From contig JAAYAH010000078.1 of the NCBI GenBank assembly GCA_012719445.1, positions 1 through 38,817 on the forward strand: 38,817 bases of DNA, given 5' to 3'. The translations under genes and the position numbers were made by a program. The first letter of the stretch is position 1, and each line of letters opens with the position of its first letter. The notes under the pieces were generated by a model. The model was not told where the DNA came from and made no database searches. It was given only the letters and a program-made list of their open reading frames with translations. Origin of the DNA: Actinomycetales bacterium. Lineage in GTDB: Bacteria > Actinomycetota > Actinomycetes > Actinomycetales > Kineosporiaceae. Positions 2,917-30,597 of the stretch are shown here, one piece after another.

Positions 2917-4068
2917 TCAGTCGGCCTTGCCCGAGGCGACCTCCTGGGCGGTGTAGTACCCGGTGTCGACGAGCGCGGTCTTGATGGTGTCCCGGTAGAC
3001 GGTCTCGACCGGCAGCAGGAACGACGGGACGACCTTGACGCCGTTGTCGTAGGTCTTCGTGTCGTTGGCCTCCGGCGTGCCGCCCTCGAGGAACGCCTGT
3101 GCCGCCCTCGCGGCCTGCTCGGCCAGCTTCCGGGTGTCCTTGAAGATCGTCGACTGCTGCACGCCGTCGGCGACCAGCTTGACCGAGGCGATCTCTGCGT
3201 CCTGCCCGGTGACGACGGGCATCGGCGTCTCGGCGTCCGCCGTCGGCCCGTAGCCGGCGTTCTGCAGCGCGGTGATGATGCCACGGGAGAGGCCGTCGTA
3301 CGGGGACAGCACCCCGTCCACCCGCCTCCCGTCGTTGTACGTCGAGGTCAGCAGGTCCTCCATCCGCCGCTGCGCCGTCTCCTGCTGCCAGCGCAGGATG
3401 GCGGCCTGCTCGATCTTCGTCTGACCGCTCTCGACGACCAGGGTGCCGTCGGTGATCAGCGGCTTCAGGACCGACATCGCCCCGTCCCAGAAGAAGACGG
3501 AGTTGTTGTCGTCCAGGGAACCGGCGAACAGCTCGACGGCGAAGGGCCCCTTCGCGGTGCCGTCCGACCCGTCGGCCTTCCGGAGCCCGAGCCCGGTGAG
3601 CAGCGCGTTGGCCTGGGCCACCCCCACCTTGAAGTTGTCGAACGTGACGTAGAAGTCGGTGTTGGGGGTGTTCCGGATCAGCCGGTCATAGGAGATCACC
3701 GGGATGCCGGCGTCCTTCGCCGCCTGCAGCTGGCTGCTCAGCGCGGTGCCGTCGATCGCCGCGATGATCAGCGCGTCCGCGCCCTGAGTGATCATCTGAT
3801 CGATCTGCTGCGACTGGGTCGGGATGTCGTCGTTGGCGTACTGGAGGTTGACCCCGTAGCCGGCGTCCTCCAACCGCTCCTTCACGGAGTTCCCGTCGGC
3901 GATCCACCGTTCCGAGGTCTGGGTCGGCATCGACACCCCGACCATGGCGTCCTTCGAGGCCGCACCACCGGCGTCCCCGGCTCCGCCGGCTCCCTCACCA
4001 CTGCACGCCGTCAGGCCGAGACACAGCACAGCCCCTGCCGCGACCACTGCTGCCGATGTGCGTCTCAC
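2917..4068 (-). CDS. chvE: Monosaccharide-binding lipoprotein (ChvE-like)
   Basis: Extracytoplasmic substrate-binding protein of the importer, 383 aa. The N-terminus is a lipoprotein signal: RR, then a hydrophobic stretch ending in the lipobox L-T-A-C with Cys22 as the lipidated residue. The mature part follows the Peripla_BP_4 fold, with VGVSMPTQTSERWIADG, QIDQMITQGADALIIAAIDG, IPVISYDRLI and VVTGQDAEIASVKLVADGVQQSTIFKD, all characteristic of ChvE and xylose/multiple-sugar binders. I chose GTG at 4066-4068 because it follows a GAGGAGGAGG ribosome site and directly precedes the signal peptide; the frame is open 37 codons further but that part looks non-coding. First gene of the operon, with a LacI-type operator about 70 bp upstream. 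Confidence 0.92.
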   Translation of the reverse strand: MRRTSAAVVAAGAVLCLGLTACSGEGAGGAGDAGGAASKDAMVGVSMPTQTSERWIADGNSVKERLEDAGYGVNLQYANDDIPTQSQQIDQMITQGADALIIAAIDGTALSSQLQAAKDAGIPVISYDRLIRNTPNTDFYVTFDNFKVGVAQANALLTGLGLRKADGSDGTAKGPFAVELFAGSLDDNNSVFFWDGAMSVLKPLITDGTLVVESGQTKIEQAAILRWQQETAQRRMEDLLTSTYNDGRRVDGVLSPYDGLSRGIITALQNAGYGPTADAETPMPVVTGQDAEIASVKLVADGVQQSTIFKDTRKLAEQAARAAQAFLEGGTPEANDTKTYDNGVKVVPSFLLPVETVYRDTIKTALVDTGYYTAQEVASGKAD

Positions 4069-4139
4069 GTCGCCTCCTCCTCGGGAGCCACCTCTCCCGG
4101 CACGCCGCACCTCTCGTCGACGGAGAGATGTTCCGGATA

Positions 4140-4153
4140 TGTTAACGTTAACA
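4140..4153. promoter_or_regulatory. LacI/GalR-type operator upstream of the sugar importer
   Basis: TGTTAACGTTAACA is a perfect 14-bp palindrome with the central CG step typical of LacI-family operators. It sits 72 bp upstream of the binding-protein start, in a locally AT-rich patch inside otherwise GC-rich DNA. No LacI-family gene lies in the window, so the regulator would be encoded elsewhere, perhaps just beyond the left edge. Confidence 0.65.
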
Positions 4154-4316
4154 ACGGCGATTGCACGAATTTTGACCAATTCGTGACCTTCCGGCCGGTC
4201 GGATCCGCCCGCCGGGTGCCTGTTGTCGGCGTCAGGAGCCGCGATCCCCCGTCACCGGGTACCGGTCACCGGACTTCGGGCACCGGTCACGGGCACCGGG
4301 AACCAAGCGCGACCCC

Positions 4317-4358
4317 GTCACCGGTCACCGGTCACCGGTCACCGGTCACCGGTCACCG
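4317..4358. repeat. Six tandem copies of a 7-bp unit (GTCACCG)
   Basis: Six exact copies of GTCACCG stand head to tail, ending 6 bp short of the response-regulator stop codon at 4365. Degenerate CACCGG/GTCACC copies spread upstream to about 4250. The array lies in the 296-bp gap between the 3' end of the regulator gene and the 5' end of the sugar operon. The units are almost self-complementary, so the transcript could fold into several alternative hairpins. It may be a slippage-prone microsatellite; no function is evident. Confidence 0.85.
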
Positions 4359-4364
4359 ACGAGG

Positions 4365-5009
4365 TCAACCGTCCAGGTAGGCGAGGACGGCGAGCACACG
4401 CCGGTTGTCGTCGTCGGACGGCGGGAGGTCGAGCTTGGTGAGGATGCTGTTGATGTGCTTGCTGACCGCCTTGTCGGTGACGGCCAGCCGCGCGGCGATC
4501 GCCGCGTTGGACCTCCCCTCGGCCATCAGGGCGAGCACCTCACGCTCCCGGGCGGTCAGCCGCTGCAGCGGGGTCTCCCGGGACCGCCGGGCGAGGAGCT
4601 GTCCGACAACCTCGGGGTCCATGACCGTTCCGCCCGCGGCGACCTGGCGCACGGCGTCGACGAACCGGCCGACGTCGGAGACCCGGTCCTTGAGCAGGTA
4701 CCCGACGCCGCCGGCCCGGTCGGACAGCAGCTCCCGCGCGTAGAGCTGCTCGACGTGCTGGGACAGCACCATCACCGGGAGCCCGGGGAGCTGTGCCCTG
4801 GCCGCGGCCGCGGCCCGCAGACCCTCGTCGGTGAAGGTCGGCGGCAGCCGGACGTCGACGACGGCCACGTCGGGGCGGAGGGTGGTCAGCGCCCTCAGCA
4901 GGGACGGGCCGTTGTCCACCGCCCCGACGACCTCGAGCCCGTACGCGGTGAGCAGCCGGGTCAGTCCGTCGCGGAGCAGGGCGAGGTCCTCGGCGATGAC
5001 TACTCGCAC
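4365..5009 (-). CDS. LuxR-family (NarL-type) response regulator
   Basis: Cytoplasmic two-component transcription factor, 214 aa. The receiver domain covers roughly residues 1-120: the acidic pair is E7-D8, the phospho-acceptor is Asp52 in VVDVRLPP, and the conserved Lys is in YLLKDRV. The C-terminal LuxR helix-turn-helix is at about 150-210 (LTAREREVLALMAEGRSNAAIAARLAVTDKAVSKHINSILTKL). ATG at 5007-5009 overlaps the end of the histidine-kinase gene by 10 bp, so both proteins are made from one message. The likely target is the divergent ABC exporter and its own operon, through the palindromes at 6268-6321 (inference). Confidence 0.93.
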   Translation of the reverse strand: MRVVIAEDLALLRDGLTRLLTAYGLEVVGAVDNGPSLLRALTTLRPDVAVVDVRLPPTFTDEGLRAAAAARAQLPGLPVMVLSQHVEQLYARELLSDRAGGVGYLLKDRVSDVGRFVDAVRQVAAGGTVMDPEVVGQLLARRSRETPLQRLTAREREVLALMAEGRSNAAIAARLAVTDKAVSKHINSILTKLDLPPSDDDNRRVLAVLAYLDG

Positions 5010-6250
5010 GGCAGCTCCATGGTCACGGTGGTCGGACCCCCGGCCGGGCTGACCACGGCAAGGGTTCCGTCGAAGGCGACCAGCCTGCGCCGGACGCCGT
5101 GGAGCCCGCTCCCGGCGTCCGGGTCGGCTCCCCCGACGCCGTCGTCGGTCACGGTCATCGTCAGCCTGCCGGAACGGTGCGCGAGACGGACCTCCGCCTG
5201 CCCGGCTCCGCTGTGCTTGACCACGTTCGCCAGCGCCTCGGCGACGCAGAAGTAGGCCGCGGACTCCAGCGGCGGCTCCAGCCGGCCCGGCAGGTCGAGG
5301 TCGAGGGTCACCGGGAGAGGCAGCGCGAGGGCCAGCGCCTGCACCGCGGGGCCGAGTCCCCGCTCCGCCAGCACGGGCGGGTGGATGCCCCTGACCAGGC
5401 TGCGCAGCTCGGCCAGGGCCTCGCCGCTCACGGTCCTCGCCTCGGCGAGCAGCCGCCTGGCCTCGTCGGGATCGCGGGCGAGCAGTTCCTCGGCCAGCCC
5501 GATGTTCATGCCGAGGGCGGCCAGCCGGGCCTGGGGGCCGTCGTGCAGGTCACGCTCGATGCGCCGGAGCTCCGCCGCCCTGGCGTCCACGACTCCGGTG
5601 CGGCTGGCGGCGAGGTGATCGACCCGTCGGTGCAGCTCGGCGGCGCGGGTCGGGCCGAGCAGGCTCCTGGCGATCAGGGCGTGCAGCCGGAGGATCCACG
5701 GCCCGACGGCGAGCCCGAGCAGCAGCATCGAGGCCCCCGGCAGAGTCGACAGCAGGGCCTCGGCCGGGTTCTCGATCGGCCACACCGCGCCGTACCCGTA
5801 GCCGTCGACCAGCAGCCAGAGGAACGGGGCGACGAAGATGCCCTCCAGCCCCTTGACGATCAGGCAGAACGGGAGCAGTCCCAGCACCAGCCCGAGGACG
5901 ATCTCGACCAGCAGCCAGAGCAGGTCACGCCAGGTGGCGGGATCGGTGAGCACCCACCAGCACCGTCGCCACGCGCCACGGACGCCACCCACCGGCTCAG
6001 AGGGCGACCGGTAGGGCCGGGGGATGTCGACGCCGCTCCAGTCCCTCGCGAGCCGGCGATGCAGGTCGGCCAGGGCCCTGGCCCCTGCGGCGACGACCGG
6101 GACGGCGAGCACGCCGATCCCCAGGGCGACGAACACCACGGCCAGCAGCGATGCGACGACCAGGACGATGGTCACGGTTTGGGACAGCACGGCGAACACC
6201 AGCCCCCGCGCCGCGGCGACCGTCCCGTTGCGGACCCATCCTGTGATCAC
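5000..6250 (-). CDS. Membrane sensor histidine kinase (HisKA_3 type)
   Basis: Senses an unknown envelope signal and phosphorylates the NarL-type regulator, 416 aa. The N-terminal 200 residues hold about four membrane segments with little extracytoplasmic sequence, resembling the 'putative sensor' domain of actinobacterial kinases. The dimerisation/phospho-acceptor helix has His236 in ERDLHDGPQARLAALGMN, and the ATPase domain has N-box EALANVVKHS and G-boxes VTDDGVGGAD and GSGLHGVRRRL. GTG at 6248-6250 has no clear ribosome site but lies 6 nt after a CAGAAT -10-like hexamer, as expected of a leaderless message. The reading frame is open for 81 more codons upstream, but that sequence overlaps the divergent promoter region. 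Confidence 0.9.
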   Translation of the reverse strand: MITGWVRNGTVAAARGLVFAVLSQTVTIVLVVASLLAVVFVALGIGVLAVPVVAAGARALADLHRRLARDWSGVDIPRPYRSPSEPVGGVRGAWRRCWWVLTDPATWRDLLWLLVEIVLGLVLGLLPFCLIVKGLEGIFVAPFLWLLVDGYGYGAVWPIENPAEALLSTLPGASMLLLGLAVGPWILRLHALIARSLLGPTRAAELHRRVDHLAASRTGVVDARAAELRRIERDLHDGPQARLAALGMNIGLAEELLARDPDEARRLLAEARTVSGEALAELRSLVRGIHPPVLAERGLGPAVQALALALPLPVTLDLDLPGRLEPPLESAAYFCVAEALANVVKHSGAGQAEVRLAHRSGRLTMTVTDDGVGGADPDAGSGLHGVRRRLVAFDGTLAVVSPAGGPTTVTMELPCE

Positions 6251-6256
6251 GCGACC

Positions 6257-6262
6257 ATTCTG
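6257..6262 (-). promoter_or_regulatory. Possible -10 box of the histidine-kinase operon
   Basis: On the minus strand CAGAAT lies 6 nt before the GTG start codon, which places transcription initiation at or next to the start codon. The divergent side has the same CAGAAT hexamer at 6343-6348. No convincing -35 is seen; the palindrome at 6268-6281 occupies that zone, as at activator-dependent promoters. Confidence 0.35.
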
Positions 6263-6267
6263 GGCCA

Positions 6268-6321
6268 CCACCGATCGGTGGATGGTGGTGCTGGCACCAC
6301 CGAGATCAGGTGGATTCCACC
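6268..6321. promoter_or_regulatory. Three GGTGG/CCACC palindromes in the divergent kinase/exporter promoter
   Basis: Three separate inverted repeats follow one another. CCACCGATCGGTGG (6268-6281) is a perfect 14-bp palindrome. GGTGGTG-CTGG-CACCACC (6284-6301) has 7-bp arms. GGTGGATTCCACC (6309-6321) has 6-bp arms around one base. All are built from the same GGTGG/CCACC half-site and lie between the kinase start and the exporter. The likely ligand is the NarL-type regulator encoded by the minus-strand operon (inference). Confidence 0.6.
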
Positions 6322-6480
6322 CCTGCCCCGTGCCCGCGGTGCCAGAATGATCAACACATGACATCACGCAACACCCCGCCCGGACCCGCGGCCGGAGTGC
6401 GCGGGACCGGGCGGGCACGTCGCGCCGGGGCCCGGGTCGTCGGGGGGATCGGGACCAGCCCGGAGAAGAGGAACCACGTC

Positions 6481-7479
6481 GTGGCATCGACACCTGACTT
6501 GCCTGTCTCGGTCCGTGGCCTGCGCAAGTCGTACGGGAGCGTGCACGCGGTCCGTGATGTCTCGTTCGACGTCGCGCCGGGGGAGATCGTCGGGATCCTG
6601 GGTCCGAACGGGTGCGGGAAGACCACTACCGTGGAGTGCCTCCAGGGCCTGCGCCGCCCGGACGCCGGCGAGATCGCGGTGCTCGGCCTGGATCCGAGGA
6701 CCCAGGCGACCGCGCTGCGCCGCCGGATCGGCAGCCAACTCCAGGACTCCGCGCTGCCGGACCGGATCCGGGTGCACGAGGCGATCCGGCTGTTCGGCTC
6801 GGTCGGCAGCTCCCCCGTGCCCGTCGACCGGCTGCTGGACGACTGGGGACTCACCGCGAAGCGCCGGGCCGCCTTCGGGAGCCTCTCCGGCGGGCAGCGG
6901 CAGCGGCTCTTCGTCGCGCTGGCCCTGGTCAACTCCCCGGAACTGGTCTTCCTCGACGAGATGACGACGGGCCTCGACCCGGCGGCCCGGCGGGAGACCT
7001 GGCGACTCCTCGAACGGGTGCGCGATCTCGGCACCGCCGTGGTGCTGGTGACGCACTTCATGGACGAGGCGGAGCGGCTGTGCGACCGGCTGGTGGTGAT
7101 GCTCGAGGGTGAGGTGATCGAGACCGGGACCCCCGCCGAGCTGATCAGGCGACACGGCGGCGGGATCACCGCGACGTTCACCGCCGACGGCGTCGAGGTC
7201 GGTCTCGTCTCCGGGCTCCCCGGGGTGCGCTCGGTGCGGCGCCGGGCCGGTTCGCTGGAGGTCAGCGGCGAGCCGGAGGCGTTGCTGCACCTCGGTCACG
7301 CCCTCGTCGGGGCCGGCTCGTTGCCCTCCGATCTCCGGGTGCGACAGCCGAGCCTCGAGGACGCGTTCTTCACCCTGGTCGGTGAGGGGTCCCGTGGGAG
7401 ACCCGGCGACGGTGCAGGGTCCGGGGACCCGGGGTCCGAGGGCTGGGCGACGGCCGGGACGAGGGAGGGTGTCGCGTGA
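6481..7479 (+). CDS. ABC-2 exporter ATP-binding protein
   Basis: ATPase of a two-gene ABC-2 (drug or antimicrobial) exporter, 332 aa. Walker A is GPNGCGKTT at about 41-49, the signature is SLSGGQRQRLFVAL, and the switch His lies in VLVTHFMDEAERL. Walker B reads VFLDEMTTGLDP, with Met where most family members have Pro, a modest oddity. The C-terminal ~100 residues form the usual accessory domain. The chosen start is GTG 6481 (AGAGGA lies upstream), where similarity to other ABC ATPases begins. An ATG at 6358 would add 41 Arg/Gly-rich residues and sits 9 nt after a CAGAAT hexamer, so a leaderless longer form is possible. The stop overlaps the permease start by 4 bp. Confidence 0.9.
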   Translation: MASTPDLPVSVRGLRKSYGSVHAVRDVSFDVAPGEIVGILGPNGCGKTTTVECLQGLRRPDAGEIAVLGLDPRTQATALRRRIGSQLQDSALPDRIRVHEAIRLFGSVGSSPVPVDRLLDDWGLTAKRRAAFGSLSGGQRQRLFVALALVNSPELVFLDEMTTGLDPAARRETWRLLERVRDLGTAVVLVTHFMDEAERLCDRLVVMLEGEVIETGTPAELIRRHGGGITATFTADGVEVGLVSGLPGVRSVRRRAGSLEVSGEPEALLHLGHALVGAGSLPSDLRVRQPSLEDAFFTLVGEGSRGRPGDGAGSGDPGSEGWATAGTREGVA

Positions 7480-8225
7480 CCGGGCGGGTGCTCCGGGAGG
7501 CCAGCCGGGTGGAGCTGGCCCTGCTGCTGCGTGAACCGGTGGCGCTGGTGTTCGCGCTGGCGTTGCCGGTGGTGAACGTCGTCGTCCTCGGCGCGGTCTT
7601 CGGGGACCAGCCGGACCCGACCGAGGACGTCTTCCGCGGGGTCAGCGGCTCCACCTACTACACCCCCGCCTACATGTCCCTGGTCGCGGCGGCGGTCGGA
7701 CTCATCGTCACCCCGACCCAGCTCGCCGGGTACCGGGAGCGGGGCGTGCTCCGCCGGATCAGGGCCTCCGGCCTGCCGGTCTCGGCGGTGCTGGTCTCCC
7801 AGGTCGTGGTCGGGCTGGTGCTGGCCGTCGTGGGCGCGGCTCTGGTCCTTGCGGTCTCCTTCGCCTCGAACGAGCCCGACGTGCCGGCCGACGTCTTCGG
7901 GGTGCTGGTGGCGTTCCTGCTGGGGACGGTGGCGCTCACCCTGCTCGGGCTGGTGCTCGGGGCGCTGCTGCCGACGGCGAGGGCGGCCCAGGGCGCCGGG
8001 GTGATGCTCTGGTTCGTGGTACTGATCCTCGGTGGTGCCGGTCCGCCGCCCGATGTGCTGCCGGACGCGATGGGGGTCGTCGGCACCTTCACCCCGTTGC
8101 GGCCGCTGGTCATCGCTCTGCAGGACCCCTGGTTCGGTAACGGCTGGAACGTCGTCCAACTGCTCGTCCTGCTCGGCCTGGGGGTGGCGTCCGGTGCCGT
8201 GGCTGCCGTCCGGCTGCGTCGCTAG
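7476..8225 (+). CDS. ABC-2 type exporter permease
   Basis: Membrane partner of the preceding ATPase, 249 aa with about six hydrophobic segments. The first is in PVALVFALALPVVNVVVLGAVFG and the last in VVQLLVLLGLGVASGAVAAVRL. The YMSLVAAAVGLIVTPTQLAGYRERGVLRRIRASGLPVSAVLVSQV stretch is the typical ABC2_membrane coupling region. Translation starts at GTG in the GTGA overlap with the ATPase stop. The pair diverges from the kinase/regulator operon, so the exporter is the probable output of that sensor. It converges with the MerR gene 35 bp away. Confidence 0.88.
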   Translation: MTGRVLREASRVELALLLREPVALVFALALPVVNVVVLGAVFGDQPDPTEDVFRGVSGSTYYTPAYMSLVAAAVGLIVTPTQLAGYRERGVLRRIRASGLPVSAVLVSQVVVGLVLAVVGAALVLAVSFASNEPDVPADVFGVLVAFLLGTVALTLLGLVLGALLPTARAAQGAGVMLWFVVLILGGAGPPPDVLPDAMGVVGTFTPLRPLVIALQDPWFGNGWNVVQLLVLLGLGVASGAVAAVRLRR

Positions 8226-8260
8226 GACCGGGTGACCGTCCGGTGGGTCCGGCGCCGGGA

Positions 8261-9085
8261 TCACTGCCACGTCGCGGAGTCGGGGTCGATCCCGTTCCTC
8301 GCGGCGTTGGCGTCGATGGCGTTGCGCAGCCACCGGGTCAGACCCGGCTGGAGCCCGTCGTAGTAGGCGGAGAAGCCGGGGTCGCAGGCGTACATCCGGC
8401 CGAGGCAGACGTGCATGGAGTGGGTGCAGTCGAAGTAGGCGCCCATGGCGGCCCGGTGTCGTTCGACCAGGGCGCCCGCCGCGGCGCCGGCCGGGTCGAC
8501 GCCGGTACGTGCTGCCGCCGCGAGGTCGGCGTTGAGGTCCGTCATGGCGTCGTTGATCCGCCGCCAGTCGGAGGTGGTCATGGTGGCCGCGTTCTCGGCG
8601 TACTGCGCCCACTGGCCGGTGTCGCCCCACCGTCGCCGGGCCTGGGAGTACCAGGACGGCTGCCAGTCCCTGCCGAAGATCTCGACCTGCTCCTCAGGGG
8701 TGAGCACGGTCCCGGTCTCCCGCGCCTGGACGAGACGGTCGACGGCCTCGACCATGCCCTGCAACTGGGCGATCCGCTCCAGCAGCAGGGCCCGTTGCCG
8801 CCGCAGGGAGTCGTCCGGAGAGGACCGGTCGTCGAGCAGTTCGCCGATGCTGCCCAGTGACAGGCCCAGCTCACGGTAGATCAGTACCCGGTGGATCCGC
8901 GCGAGGTCACCGGCGGAGTAGAGCCGGTAGCCGGCCACCGTTCGTCCCGACGGTCGGACCAGCCCGATCCTGTCCCAGTGGTGCAGGGTCCGCACGGTCA
9001 CCCCGACCGCCGAGGCCGCTGCCCCGACCGTCAGGCCGTCGTCCGTCAGGCCGGCGTCCGCGGCGGCGTCGGCGGGCGCGGTCAT
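8261..9085 (-). CDS. MerR-family regulator with TipAS effector domain (TipAL-like)
   Basis: Transcription regulator of 274 aa. The N-terminal MerR winged helix (about 18-85) is LTVGAAASAVGVTVRTLHHWDRIGLVRPSGRTVAGYRLYSAGDLARI. A coiled dimerisation helix follows (RRQRALLLERIAQLQGMVEAVDRL). The C-terminal TipAS-type globin-like domain (about 130-270) contains RRRWGDTGQWAQYAEN and a Trp-rich helix. TipAL proteins bind thiopeptides or other hydrophobic multicyclic drugs and activate efflux or self-protection genes. I chose ATG at 9083-9085 because the frame further up overlaps the VOC gene. No ribosome site is seen; CAGACT lies 7 nt upstream, so the gene may be leaderless, or it may be read through from the VOC gene 41 bp upstream. 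Confidence 0.87.
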   Translation of the reverse strand: MTAPADAAADAGLTDDGLTVGAAASAVGVTVRTLHHWDRIGLVRPSGRTVAGYRLYSAGDLARIHRVLIYRELGLSLGSIGELLDDRSSPDDSLRRQRALLLERIAQLQGMVEAVDRLVQARETGTVLTPEEQVEIFGRDWQPSWYSQARRRWGDTGQWAQYAENAATMTTSDWRRINDAMTDLNADLAAAARTGVDPAGAAAGALVERHRAAMGAYFDCTHSMHVCLGRMYACDPGFSAYYDGLQPGLTRWLRNAIDANAARNGIDPDSATWQ

Positions 9086-9126
9086 GGCGGTCAGTCTGGC
9101 AGCCGGGGGCGACGCGGACGCCGTGC

Positions 9127-9642
9127 TCAGTCCTGACCGGTCCGTTCCGGGCTGAGGATGCCGATGGCCTCCAGGTTGCGGGCCTGTTCGCTGCCCGGCT
9201 CCAACTGCCGGGCGGCGGTGAGGATCACCCGGGCGTTCTCCGGCGTGATGACCTGGAGGTCGACGGTGTTCCACGGCGTCGGTGCAGGCCCGGTCGTGCA
9301 GCCGGGCAGCAACGACTCACACGCCTCGGCGACGGCGTCGAGCTGGCCGAGCACGCACGCGAAGCTGACGCTCGTCGCGGGCACCTCGCCGGCCCCACCG
9401 GAGACCAGTAACGCGTCCTGGAAGGCCCACCGGCGCAGGTGGGTGAGCCGGCCGGGGATGGTGAACAGGTCGAAGAAACCCAGACCACGCACCCAGAAGT
9501 CGACCGAGACGGCCAGGTCGGAGGTCGGGATCGTGACGAACATCGGCATCGCGTAGATCCCGCGGTAGACCTCCGGCGGCTTCACGTCGGGACCGGGTGC
9601 AGGTACCGGACTGATCTCGAAGGCGTTGTCGTAGTCGGCCAT
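9127..9642 (-). CDS. VOC-superfamily (glyoxalase/bleomycin-resistance fold) protein
   Basis: Small cytoplasmic protein of 171 aa. The central part fits one vicinal-oxygen-chelate module pair: VTIPTSDLAVSVDFWVRGLGFFDLFTIPG, then WAFQDALLVSGG, then PWNTVDLQVITPENARVILTAARQL. Members bind a metal and either isomerise/cleave substrates or sequester drugs; the exact role cannot be read. ATG at 9640-9642 follows GGAGGGTGACCGC, a good ribosome site. The C-terminal ~30 residues are an extra polar tail. It stands 41 bp upstream of a TipAL-like regulator in the same direction, which suggests drug sensing or sequestration (inference). Confidence 0.78.
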   Translation of the reverse strand: MADYDNAFEISPVPAPGPDVKPPEVYRGIYAMPMFVTIPTSDLAVSVDFWVRGLGFFDLFTIPGRLTHLRRWAFQDALLVSGGAGEVPATSVSFACVLGQLDAVAEACESLLPGCTTGPAPTPWNTVDLQVITPENARVILTAARQLEPGSEQARNLEAIGILSPERTGQD

Positions 9643-29578: not shown

Positions 29579-30597
29579 GCCGGCAGCGCCCGTCGGCTGT
29601 AGATCTGCCGGACGACGCCCTCGAGGTCCGGCTCGACGATGGAGACGTCGGCGACGGAGAACTCCGCGGCCAGGGCGGCGATGAGGTCGGAGGCCGCGGT
29701 CCGACCGCCCTCGAACCGGAGCCGGACGGTGTCCGGTTCCGGCTCCTCCCCCTCGTCGGCGACCAGCGCGGCACCCAGCGCGGCGACCCGCTCCGCGGTG
29801 ATCGGCTCCGCCTGCCCGCCGTCGCCCGCGACCCGCACGACGAGGGTGCGGTGCGGCGCGTACCGGGACTTCAGCTCGGCGACGCTCCCGTCGTAGAGCA
29901 CCCGGCCGTGGTCGATGAGGATCACCCGGGAGCAGAGCCGCTCGACGTCGGCCAGGTCGTGGGTGGTGAGCACGACCGTGGTGCCGTGCTCCCGGTTCAC
30001 CTCCTCGATGAAGTCGCGCATGGTCGCCTTGGCCACCACGTCGAGCCCGATCGTCGGCTCGTCCAGGTAGAGGATCCGGGGCTGGTAGAGCATCGCCGCG
30101 GCGAGGTCGCCGCGCATCCGCTGGCCGAGGCTGAGCTGGCGGACCGGCCGGTCGAGGAACTCGGCCATGTCGAGCAGGTCGACGAACCGCCGGTACTGGC
30201 GGCGGTAGGTCTCCGGTGGCATCCGGTACAGGGTGGCGACGAGGTCCAGCGAGTCCCTCAGCGGGAGGTCCCACCACAGCTGGGTCCGCTGACCGAAGAC
30301 CACCCCGATCTGGAGGGCGTTGCGCTGCCGGTCGCGCCACGGCACGACCCCGCCGACGTCGACGGAACCCGAGGTCGGCACGAGGATCCCGGTCATCATC
30401 TTGATCGTGGTGCTCTTGCCGGCGCCGTTGGGACCCAGGTAGCCGACCATCTCCCCGGTGCGGATGTCGAAGGTGACGTCGTCGACAGCGACCGTGCGCT
30501 CGACCTGGCGGGTGACCAGGGTGCGCAGTCCCGCGAACCGCCCGGGTGGCCGTCTCGGCCGGACGAACTCCTTGGTCAGGCCCTCGACCCGGATCAC
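29575..30597 (-). CDS. ABC-2 exporter ATP-binding protein (paired-permease type)
   Basis: 340 aa. A 20-residue insert (RPRRPPGRFAGLRTLVTRQVERT) after the first strand is characteristic of this ATPase group. Walker A is GPNGAGKSTT, the Q-loop is GVVFGQRTQLWWDLPLRDS, the signature is LSLGQRMRGDLAAAM (LSLGQ in place of LSGGQ, normal for the group), Walker B is ILYLDEPTIGLD and the switch is LTTHDLADVERL. GTG 30595-30597 follows GGGAGGG. A polar C-terminal domain (about 235-340) follows. No regulator is adjacent. Confidence 0.9.
   Translation of the reverse strand: MIRVEGLTKEFVRPRRPPGRFAGLRTLVTRQVERTVAVDDVTFDIRTGEMVGYLGPNGAGKSTTIKMMTGILVPTSGSVDVGGVVPWRDRQRNALQIGVVFGQRTQLWWDLPLRDSLDLVATLYRMPPETYRRQYRRFVDLLDMAEFLDRPVRQLSLGQRMRGDLAAAMLYQPRILYLDEPTIGLDVVAKATMRDFIEEVNREHGTTVVLTTHDLADVERLCSRVILIDHGRVLYDGSVAELKSRYAPHRTLVVRVAGDGGQAEPITAERVAALGAALVADEGEEPEPDTVRLRFEGGRTAASDLIAALAAEFSVADVSIVEPDLEGVVRQIYSRRALPA

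Follow-up and report, generated by a model that had tools for sequence, protein, structure and literature searches.

The region between a sensor kinase operon and a divergent ABC exporter operon in the window (the whole 38,817-nucleotide stretch of Kineosporiaceae DNA that was analysed) quite probably serves two divergent activator-dependent promoters as their common operator. Judged from its sequence, it would form an autoregulating switch of kinase and exporter, working through one conserved palindrome, P2, and probably through a second, P3. The features of the locus are as follows.

4365..5009, minus strand: NarL/LuxR-type response regulator gene (receiver and GerE domains; Pfam Response_reg, GerE).
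5000..6250, minus strand: sensor histidine kinase gene (Pfam Sensor PF13796, N-terminal; HisKA_3; HATPase_c).
6257..6262, minus strand: proposed -10 box CAGAAT of the kinase operon, six bases before GTG 6250.
6268-6281: P1, everted palindrome CCACCGATCGGTGG, arms 7, gap 0; role doubtful.
6284-6301: P2, main operator candidate, GGTGGTGC-TG-GCACCACC (18-mer GGTGGTGCTGGCACCACC; GGTG-N10-CACC), arms 8, gap 2.
6309-6321: P3, probable second operator, exporter-proximal, GGTGGA-T-TCCACC (GGTGGATTCCACC), arms 6, gap 1.
6343..6348, plus strand: proposed -10 box CAGAAT of the exporter operon, nine bases before ATG 6358.
6358..7479, plus strand: ABC exporter ATPase gene (Pfam ABC_tran), start at ATG 6358 or GTG 6481.
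7476..8225, plus strand: ABC-2 type membrane subunit gene of the exporter (Pfam ABC2_membrane).

The regulator is a NarL/FixJ (LuxR-type) response regulator, scoring 54.0 bits for Response_reg (cut-off 30.2) and 47.8 bits for GerE (cut-off 23.5), and the kinase, with its HisKA_3 dimerisation domain and ATPase domain, is a HisKA_3 sensor kinase. The regulator shares 57-77% identity with the 18 other regulators of alignment A1, across which D8, D52 and K107 are invariant. Narrower names were rejected. The MadR family model (NCBIfam NF047785) gave the regulator 101.8 bits against a curated 300, below what the MadRS name would call for, and the best NCBIfam matches of both exporter subunits, to DrrAB daunorubicin-type exporters, fell below their curated cut-offs (197.7 bits against 312.45 for the ATPase, DrrA, TIGR01188; 26.0 bits against 223.05 for the membrane subunit). 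The source genome also holds three paralogous kinase-regulator pairs, on contigs C185, C22 and C153 (L107, L108, L109); the pair on C22 and its relatives (L125, L126, L030) have upstream a motif of another kind, resembling GGGGGTTGTCCCC or its complement. Directly behind the regulator stop codon lies a tandem repeat of the 7-bp unit GTCACCG (about 15 copies with 72% matches, 4251-4358). Convergent with the exporter is a TipAS-type MerR regulator gene (8261-9274, minus strand), which probably starts at about 9085, behind a box (CAGACT-N7-ATG) of the type found at the kinase and exporter.

As the first-pass annotation had described, CAGAAT stands at a -10-like position on both divergent sides and a good -35 is missing from both, neither CCATCC nor CCCCTG, which stand 17 bp upstream on the kinase and the exporter side respectively, resembling TTGACA. 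Both boxes sit inside CCAGAATGRTC, of which these are the only two copies in the window (0.03 expected), and the kinase and exporter boxes agree at 10 of 11 bases. We infer that they are -10 elements, with transcription starting at the sites placed from them. The kinase most likely starts at GTG 6250, which we propose is read from a leaderless message (CAGAAT-N6-GTG); a box and start laid out in the same way recur in 35 of 75 relatives, and under a loose rule (NANNNT with an in-frame start) the box took the form [ACG]AGA[AC]T in 26 of the 33 relatives with a match. The exporter may start either at ATG 6358, near-leaderless, or at GTG 6481, with the ribosome-binding site GGAGAAGAGG upstream, and both candidates remained after third-position GC and codon composition were considered. 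A 16-bp inverted repeat (94%) occupies 6375-6415, in the exporter leader or its N-terminal coding region. RNA structure in this leader was considered and rejected, its fold z-score being 0.19 and its stability no higher than that of shuffles.

Between the two boxes lie three perfect palindromes which, as first reported, together span 54 bp. When the 107-bp region was put through 5,000 dinucleotide-preserving shuffles, such palindromes numbered 0.15 on average, and three occurred in none. Across the whole window, 19 of 3,871 frames of 107 bp, taken at steps of 10, held at least three; they fall in three places, namely the P1-P3 region, the tandem repeat at 4251-4358 and about 30,050-30,197. The underlying motifs are not themselves enriched. 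GGTGG-N1-8-CCACC was found at 378 places in the genome against 500 for the reversed control, so that a genome-wide family of GGTGG/CCACC sites was rejected, and the single GGTG-N10-CACC copy in the window compares with 1.83 expected. Since the bare motif is common or at chance level, the evidence is conservation, not the motif itself. The idea of P2 as the motif of a multi-gene regulon in the source genome was likewise set aside: it has no other exact copy there, and a copy with one mismatch, on C90 (L110), was matched by none of the kinase, regulator, exporter and TipAS queries.

P2 carries all eight letters of the GGTG-N10-CACC core, as a site of the operator family does, and its conservation upstream of orthologous kinases, the test on which the original proposal had been staked, was borne out. 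Relatives were gathered by a kinase search (58 genomes, with matches in 56), by the regulator (13 genomes of the family) and by regulator alignment in a species collection (the best 80 of 587 loci, L127-L206). Among 68 regions upstream of kinases, 32 held GGGGTG-N10-CACCCC at 11 or more of its 12 letters, where shuffles would lead one to expect 0.6, the relatives not being independent of one another. Other spacers also exceeded chance at this threshold in the 68 regions, namely 7 (19), 12 (8) and 4 (5), which we read as shifts within repeats such as GCACCACC. The identical 18-mer precedes the orthologous kinases of Micromonospora maritima L127 (regulator 82% identical to that of the window) and of L240 (G246; regulator 81%), standing exactly 21 bp before the -10 at each, and also a more distant paralogous system, L119 (regulator 60%); Phytohabitans L136 has a near copy at 21 bp, with the box CACCAT. 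Upstream of the L112 kinase stands a palindrome with 17-bp arms, GGGGGTGGAACCACTTCGTGAAGTGGTTCCACCCCC, a G-rich operator variant beside a near relative of the regulator.

A second search began from the motif. In 296 genomes, GGTGGTGC-NN-GCACCACC was present in 23, at 31 places besides the window, compared with 15 places for the reversed control. Fourteen of these copies are centred on CA/TG, as P2 is, and six of the 14 lie upstream of this kinase-regulator pair; 16 copies have other centres, and none of the 13 examined has the pair (Fisher p 0.016, with other-centre copies examined within 1.5 kb and CA/TG copies within about 3 kb, all six kinase matches lying at 1.5 kb or less). A single TA-centred copy, which had no match, was set aside in this comparison. 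The remaining eight CA/TG copies have no adjoining kinase-regulator pair: L231 shows an ABC and a partial kinase match, L239 an ABC, L238 a regulator (39%) and L235 a TipAS-like match; at L234 the N-terminus of the kinase is matched weakly, and L232, L242 and L244 gave no match. Very probably the cognate NarL-type regulator has P2 as a conserved operator site. A homologue of the window's exporter divergent to the kinase was absent from a set of 20 stretches, 18 of them with the kinase (L109 is cut off upstream of it). Seven Streptosporangiaceae loci do have a P2-type site conserved together with a homologous divergent exporter, whose ATPase and membrane subunit are 47-52% and 31-36% identical to those of the window.

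The position of the site was measured relative to the -10 box. In each relative the -10 was a match to a set box pattern that had an in-frame start codon following at 5-8 bases, and gaps of 0-89 were scanned for the best GGTG-N10-CACC. This anchored 35 of the 75 loci with a kinase, or 37 with L113 and L240 added by hand, and left 40 of the 75 unanchored and unscored. The best site had at least six of eight letters in 32 of the 37 anchored relatives, at gaps of 21-22 in six, of 43-46 in 23 and elsewhere in three; a count conditioned on the site, in which a -10 was sought only at gaps 19-23 and 40-48, gave 43 of 75 loci. On the kinase side of the window, P2 ends 21 bp before the -10 and is in register (21-22 or 43-46 bp). 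On the exporter side, P2 stands at 41 bp, outside 43-46, and P3 at 21 bp, with six of eight core letters; P3 ends 46 bp from the kinase -10. With the first base of the -10 taken as -12, P2 would be centred at about -42.5 for the kinase, a class II position provided that the start site is as we place it, and at about -62.5 for the exporter, a class I position. Two patterns formulated after inspection of the window, the site with NAGAMT at 20-22 bp and at 40-46 bp, each have one copy in the 5.42-Mb genome, in both cases at the window locus, and none in the control.

A site facing both promoters is also found at other loci. In the seven Streptosporangiaceae loci and L158, where sites were picked by eye and the divergent gene of L158 was unlabelled by the queries, all eight have the site at 43-45 bp from the divergent -10, and six have it at 43-46 bp from that of the kinase. 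L165, at 44 bp from the divergent -10 and 21 bp from the kinase one, is much like the window, although only one half of its site fits; at L174 the kinase side has no box by the rule.

These spacings bear on the alternative that best survives, according to which the regulator binds P2 alone and controls its own operon, P3 and the exporter promoter standing outside the circuit. P2 is conserved much better than P3, and the gene across the operator varies, being an MMPL exporter in 14 of 75 loci, an ABC gene in 10, a fatty acid desaturase in two and unmatched by the queries in 49, as one would expect on that account. We nevertheless consider it unlikely, given that P3 lies exactly 21 bp before the exporter CAGAAT, the register of P2 to the kinase box, that the exporter box so closely repeats the kinase box, and that the site keeps its distance from the divergent -10 in all eight loci described above.

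In our preferred reading, in which both operons are under control, P3 is a plausible, and probable, second operator site. It has a 5-base spacer instead of 10, matches six of eight letters in the P2 frame and is centred 22.5 bp from P2. Among 14 relatives of the 21 type or near it, four (L131, L132, L137 and L192) have a loose palindrome, centred on AT, some 23 bp further out than the P2-like site, a clear P3 counterpart being missing in the other 10; the average of 15 rows gives a signal of about two standard deviations at 23-24 bp, with a slightly higher peak at 32.5. Near the 21 register the 45-type loci have a second, degenerate element: upstream of the -10, positions -38 to -36 are G and positions -27 to -25 are C, each in at least 70% of 40 such loci. 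In 23 anchored 45-type loci the 18-mers at gap 21 match only one to four of eight letters, and the second element there is therefore not a P2 copy. The earlier proposal that the cognate NarL-type regulator controls kinase and exporter jointly is in this way upheld for P2 by conservation, while for P3 the grounds are the 21-bp register and the loose counterparts in four of 14 relatives.

The first-pass annotation had treated the three palindromes as equal sites, a description that does not hold for P1. P1 is everted with respect to P2, sits in the interval from P2 to the kinase -10, 5 bp short of the latter, and has a P1-like CCACC..GGTGG counterpart between the P2-like site and the -10 in one of 14 relatives (L113), where it is 4-5 bp nearer the -10; L127 and L240 retain GGTGG alone at that place. 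Its role is doubtful, and by itself it is possibly a chance palindrome or a hairpin. P1 is also where a repressive scheme would find its footing, since a protein bound between P2 and the kinase -10 would block RNA polymerase, and L113 has a similar palindrome in that interval. By that scheme the regulator would repress one or both promoters by covering them from P1 or P2. We regard this as quite unlikely: the interval contains no such palindrome in 13 of the 14 relatives, the registers of 21-22 and 43-46 bp are class II and class I activator positions, and the -35 elements are poor.

The two registers follow the regulator lineage. On a quick tree of 92 regulators, with labels partly assigned by eye, a single change accounts for the distribution of the 21 label (11 rows) and the 45 label (40 rows), against about 10 on average in 500 label shuffles, none of which came as low as one; strict labels (7 versus 40, or 7 versus 23 rows) gave one change as well. 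The 11 rows of the 21 type include L138 and L141 (five of eight letters), L136 (box CACCAT) and L181 (tied with gap 15), and omit L133 and L134. Nineteen regulator residues differ between the groups by the rule applied, including K180, S183 and I186 in the DNA-binding domain.

This pattern, together with the way the site tracks the kinase-regulator pair across many actinobacteria, makes it very unlikely that the palindromes are operators of some other regulator, such as the TipAS-type MerR protein or one of the three paralogous NarL-type regulators. Such a role would be in keeping with TipAS-query matches near the exporter in L165 and near the 18-mer copy in L235, and with the similar G-rich palindromes of paralogous systems (regulator about 60%), among them L119 with its identical 18-mer. 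The region upstream of the TipAS gene has no P2-like site by eye, and nothing in it suggests that the TipAS protein uses P1 as an operator of the MerR type, an assignment that was rejected. Last, that the palindromes arose by chance or are transcribed hairpins is barely credible, common as GGTGG/CCACC palindromes are in the genome by the simple pattern, given that no shuffle produced three, that P2 is conserved, that they lie upstream of both proposed starts and that 4000 to 9300 contains no Rfam match. These likelihoods, like that of the favoured explanation, are partly overlapping, and their total is not one.

The shared operator, in short, would work as follows. The phosphorylated NarL-type regulator would bind P2 as a dimer, probably together with P3. 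At the kinase promoter P2 would occupy the -35, in the class II position, with P3 about 23 bp further out; at the exporter promoter the roles would be swapped, with P2, at 41 bp from the -10, as the distal site and P3, at 21 bp, as the proximal one. In this manner a pair of sites would serve both sides, coupling positive autoregulation of the sensor operon to joint induction of the exporter on the kinase signal. Binding, its dependence on phosphorylation and activation are predicted from the layout of these sites, and cooperativity between P2 and P3 is suggested by their spacing of about 23 bp and by the precedent of DevR. The signal is probably membrane-related, and the recurrence of MMPL exporters and desaturases opposite the kinase would fit membrane or envelope stress.

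The exporter appears to have a history of its own. The window ATPase is 34-36% identical to the divergent ATPases of L131, L132 and L137, whose regulators branch with or near the 21-type rows, compared with the 47-52% seen for the Streptosporangiaceae loci, five of which are labelled 45 type, the other two lying in the same part of the tree. Since the window ATPase is thus nearer to loci of the 45-type part than to ATPases found with 21-type regulators, exporter and regulator seem to have been re-paired at this locus. A joint reading, which we offer tentatively and rate slightly below an even chance, would be that a widespread actinobacterial sensor-regulator family uses one operator in two registers (21 and 45 bp), that the register shifted once, with the regulator lineage, and that the opposite gene (ABC exporter, MMPL exporter or fatty acid desaturase) has been exchanged. 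The window would then be a hybrid in which a 21-type regulator is joined by an exporter that, among the loci found, has its nearest relatives in the 45-type part of the tree, its two palindromes placing a site near the proximal and the distal register of both promoters.

The analysis provides a sequence-level layout of operator and promoter for a large actinobacterial two-component family with many members in Streptomyces, and the predicted targets of this regulator family are ABC and MMPL exporters and desaturases. As regulator lineage and promoter position changed together, the family also offers a natural case for the residues that contact RNA polymerase in class I versus class II activation, with the 19 differing residues as candidates.

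A description of a P2-type operator was not found among matches in the open PMC literature, outside which most subscription journals lie. SCO5784/5785 of S. coelicolor was considered as a characterised counterpart and rejected, the available part of the source (PMC3276577) giving no binding site. The closest precedent in mechanism is DevR/DosR of Mycobacterium. According to the available portions of two reports (PMC3029386, PMC7018068), shared sites serve the divergent promoters tgs1-Rv3131 and narK2-Rv1738, the proximal site overlaps the -35, and DevR binds cooperatively to a site and an adjacent weaker one. As far as those portions go, the window shares with that system a NarL-type regulator, a proximal site at the -35 and sites common to divergent promoters, the measured likeness in the window being that of site spacing only. 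It differs in regulator and signal and in the sites themselves, which here are GGTG-N10-CACC with P2 and P3 centres 22.5 bp apart.

In gene arrangement the window resembles ChrSA-hrtBA of Corynebacterium. The accessible sections of one account (PMC3353115) place hrtBA of C. glutamicum immediately upstream of ChrSA (CgtSR8), in opposite orientation and with a LuxR-type regulator, and state that the hrtBA exporter genes of C. diphtheriae are activated by ChrSA. As there described, both loci have an exporter divergent to a two-component system with a LuxR-type regulator; unlike the window system, ChrSA-hrtBA is a heme system. The YfiJK-YfiLMN system of Bacillus subtilis, later named LnrJK-LnrLMN, is a less close parallel. 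The available part of its description (PMC4672918) has the YfiJK kinase/regulator pair inducing the adjoining ABC transporter YfiLMN and protecting against linearmycin, a lytic linear polyene. On that description it too sets a kinase/regulator pair beside an ABC transporter, but in Firmicutes and with the transporter genes downstream of the pair rather than divergent. By analogy with these systems, the window is best read as a variant of a known arrangement, DevR-like in its shared sites and ChrSA-hrtBA-like in the exporter that faces its two-component operon.
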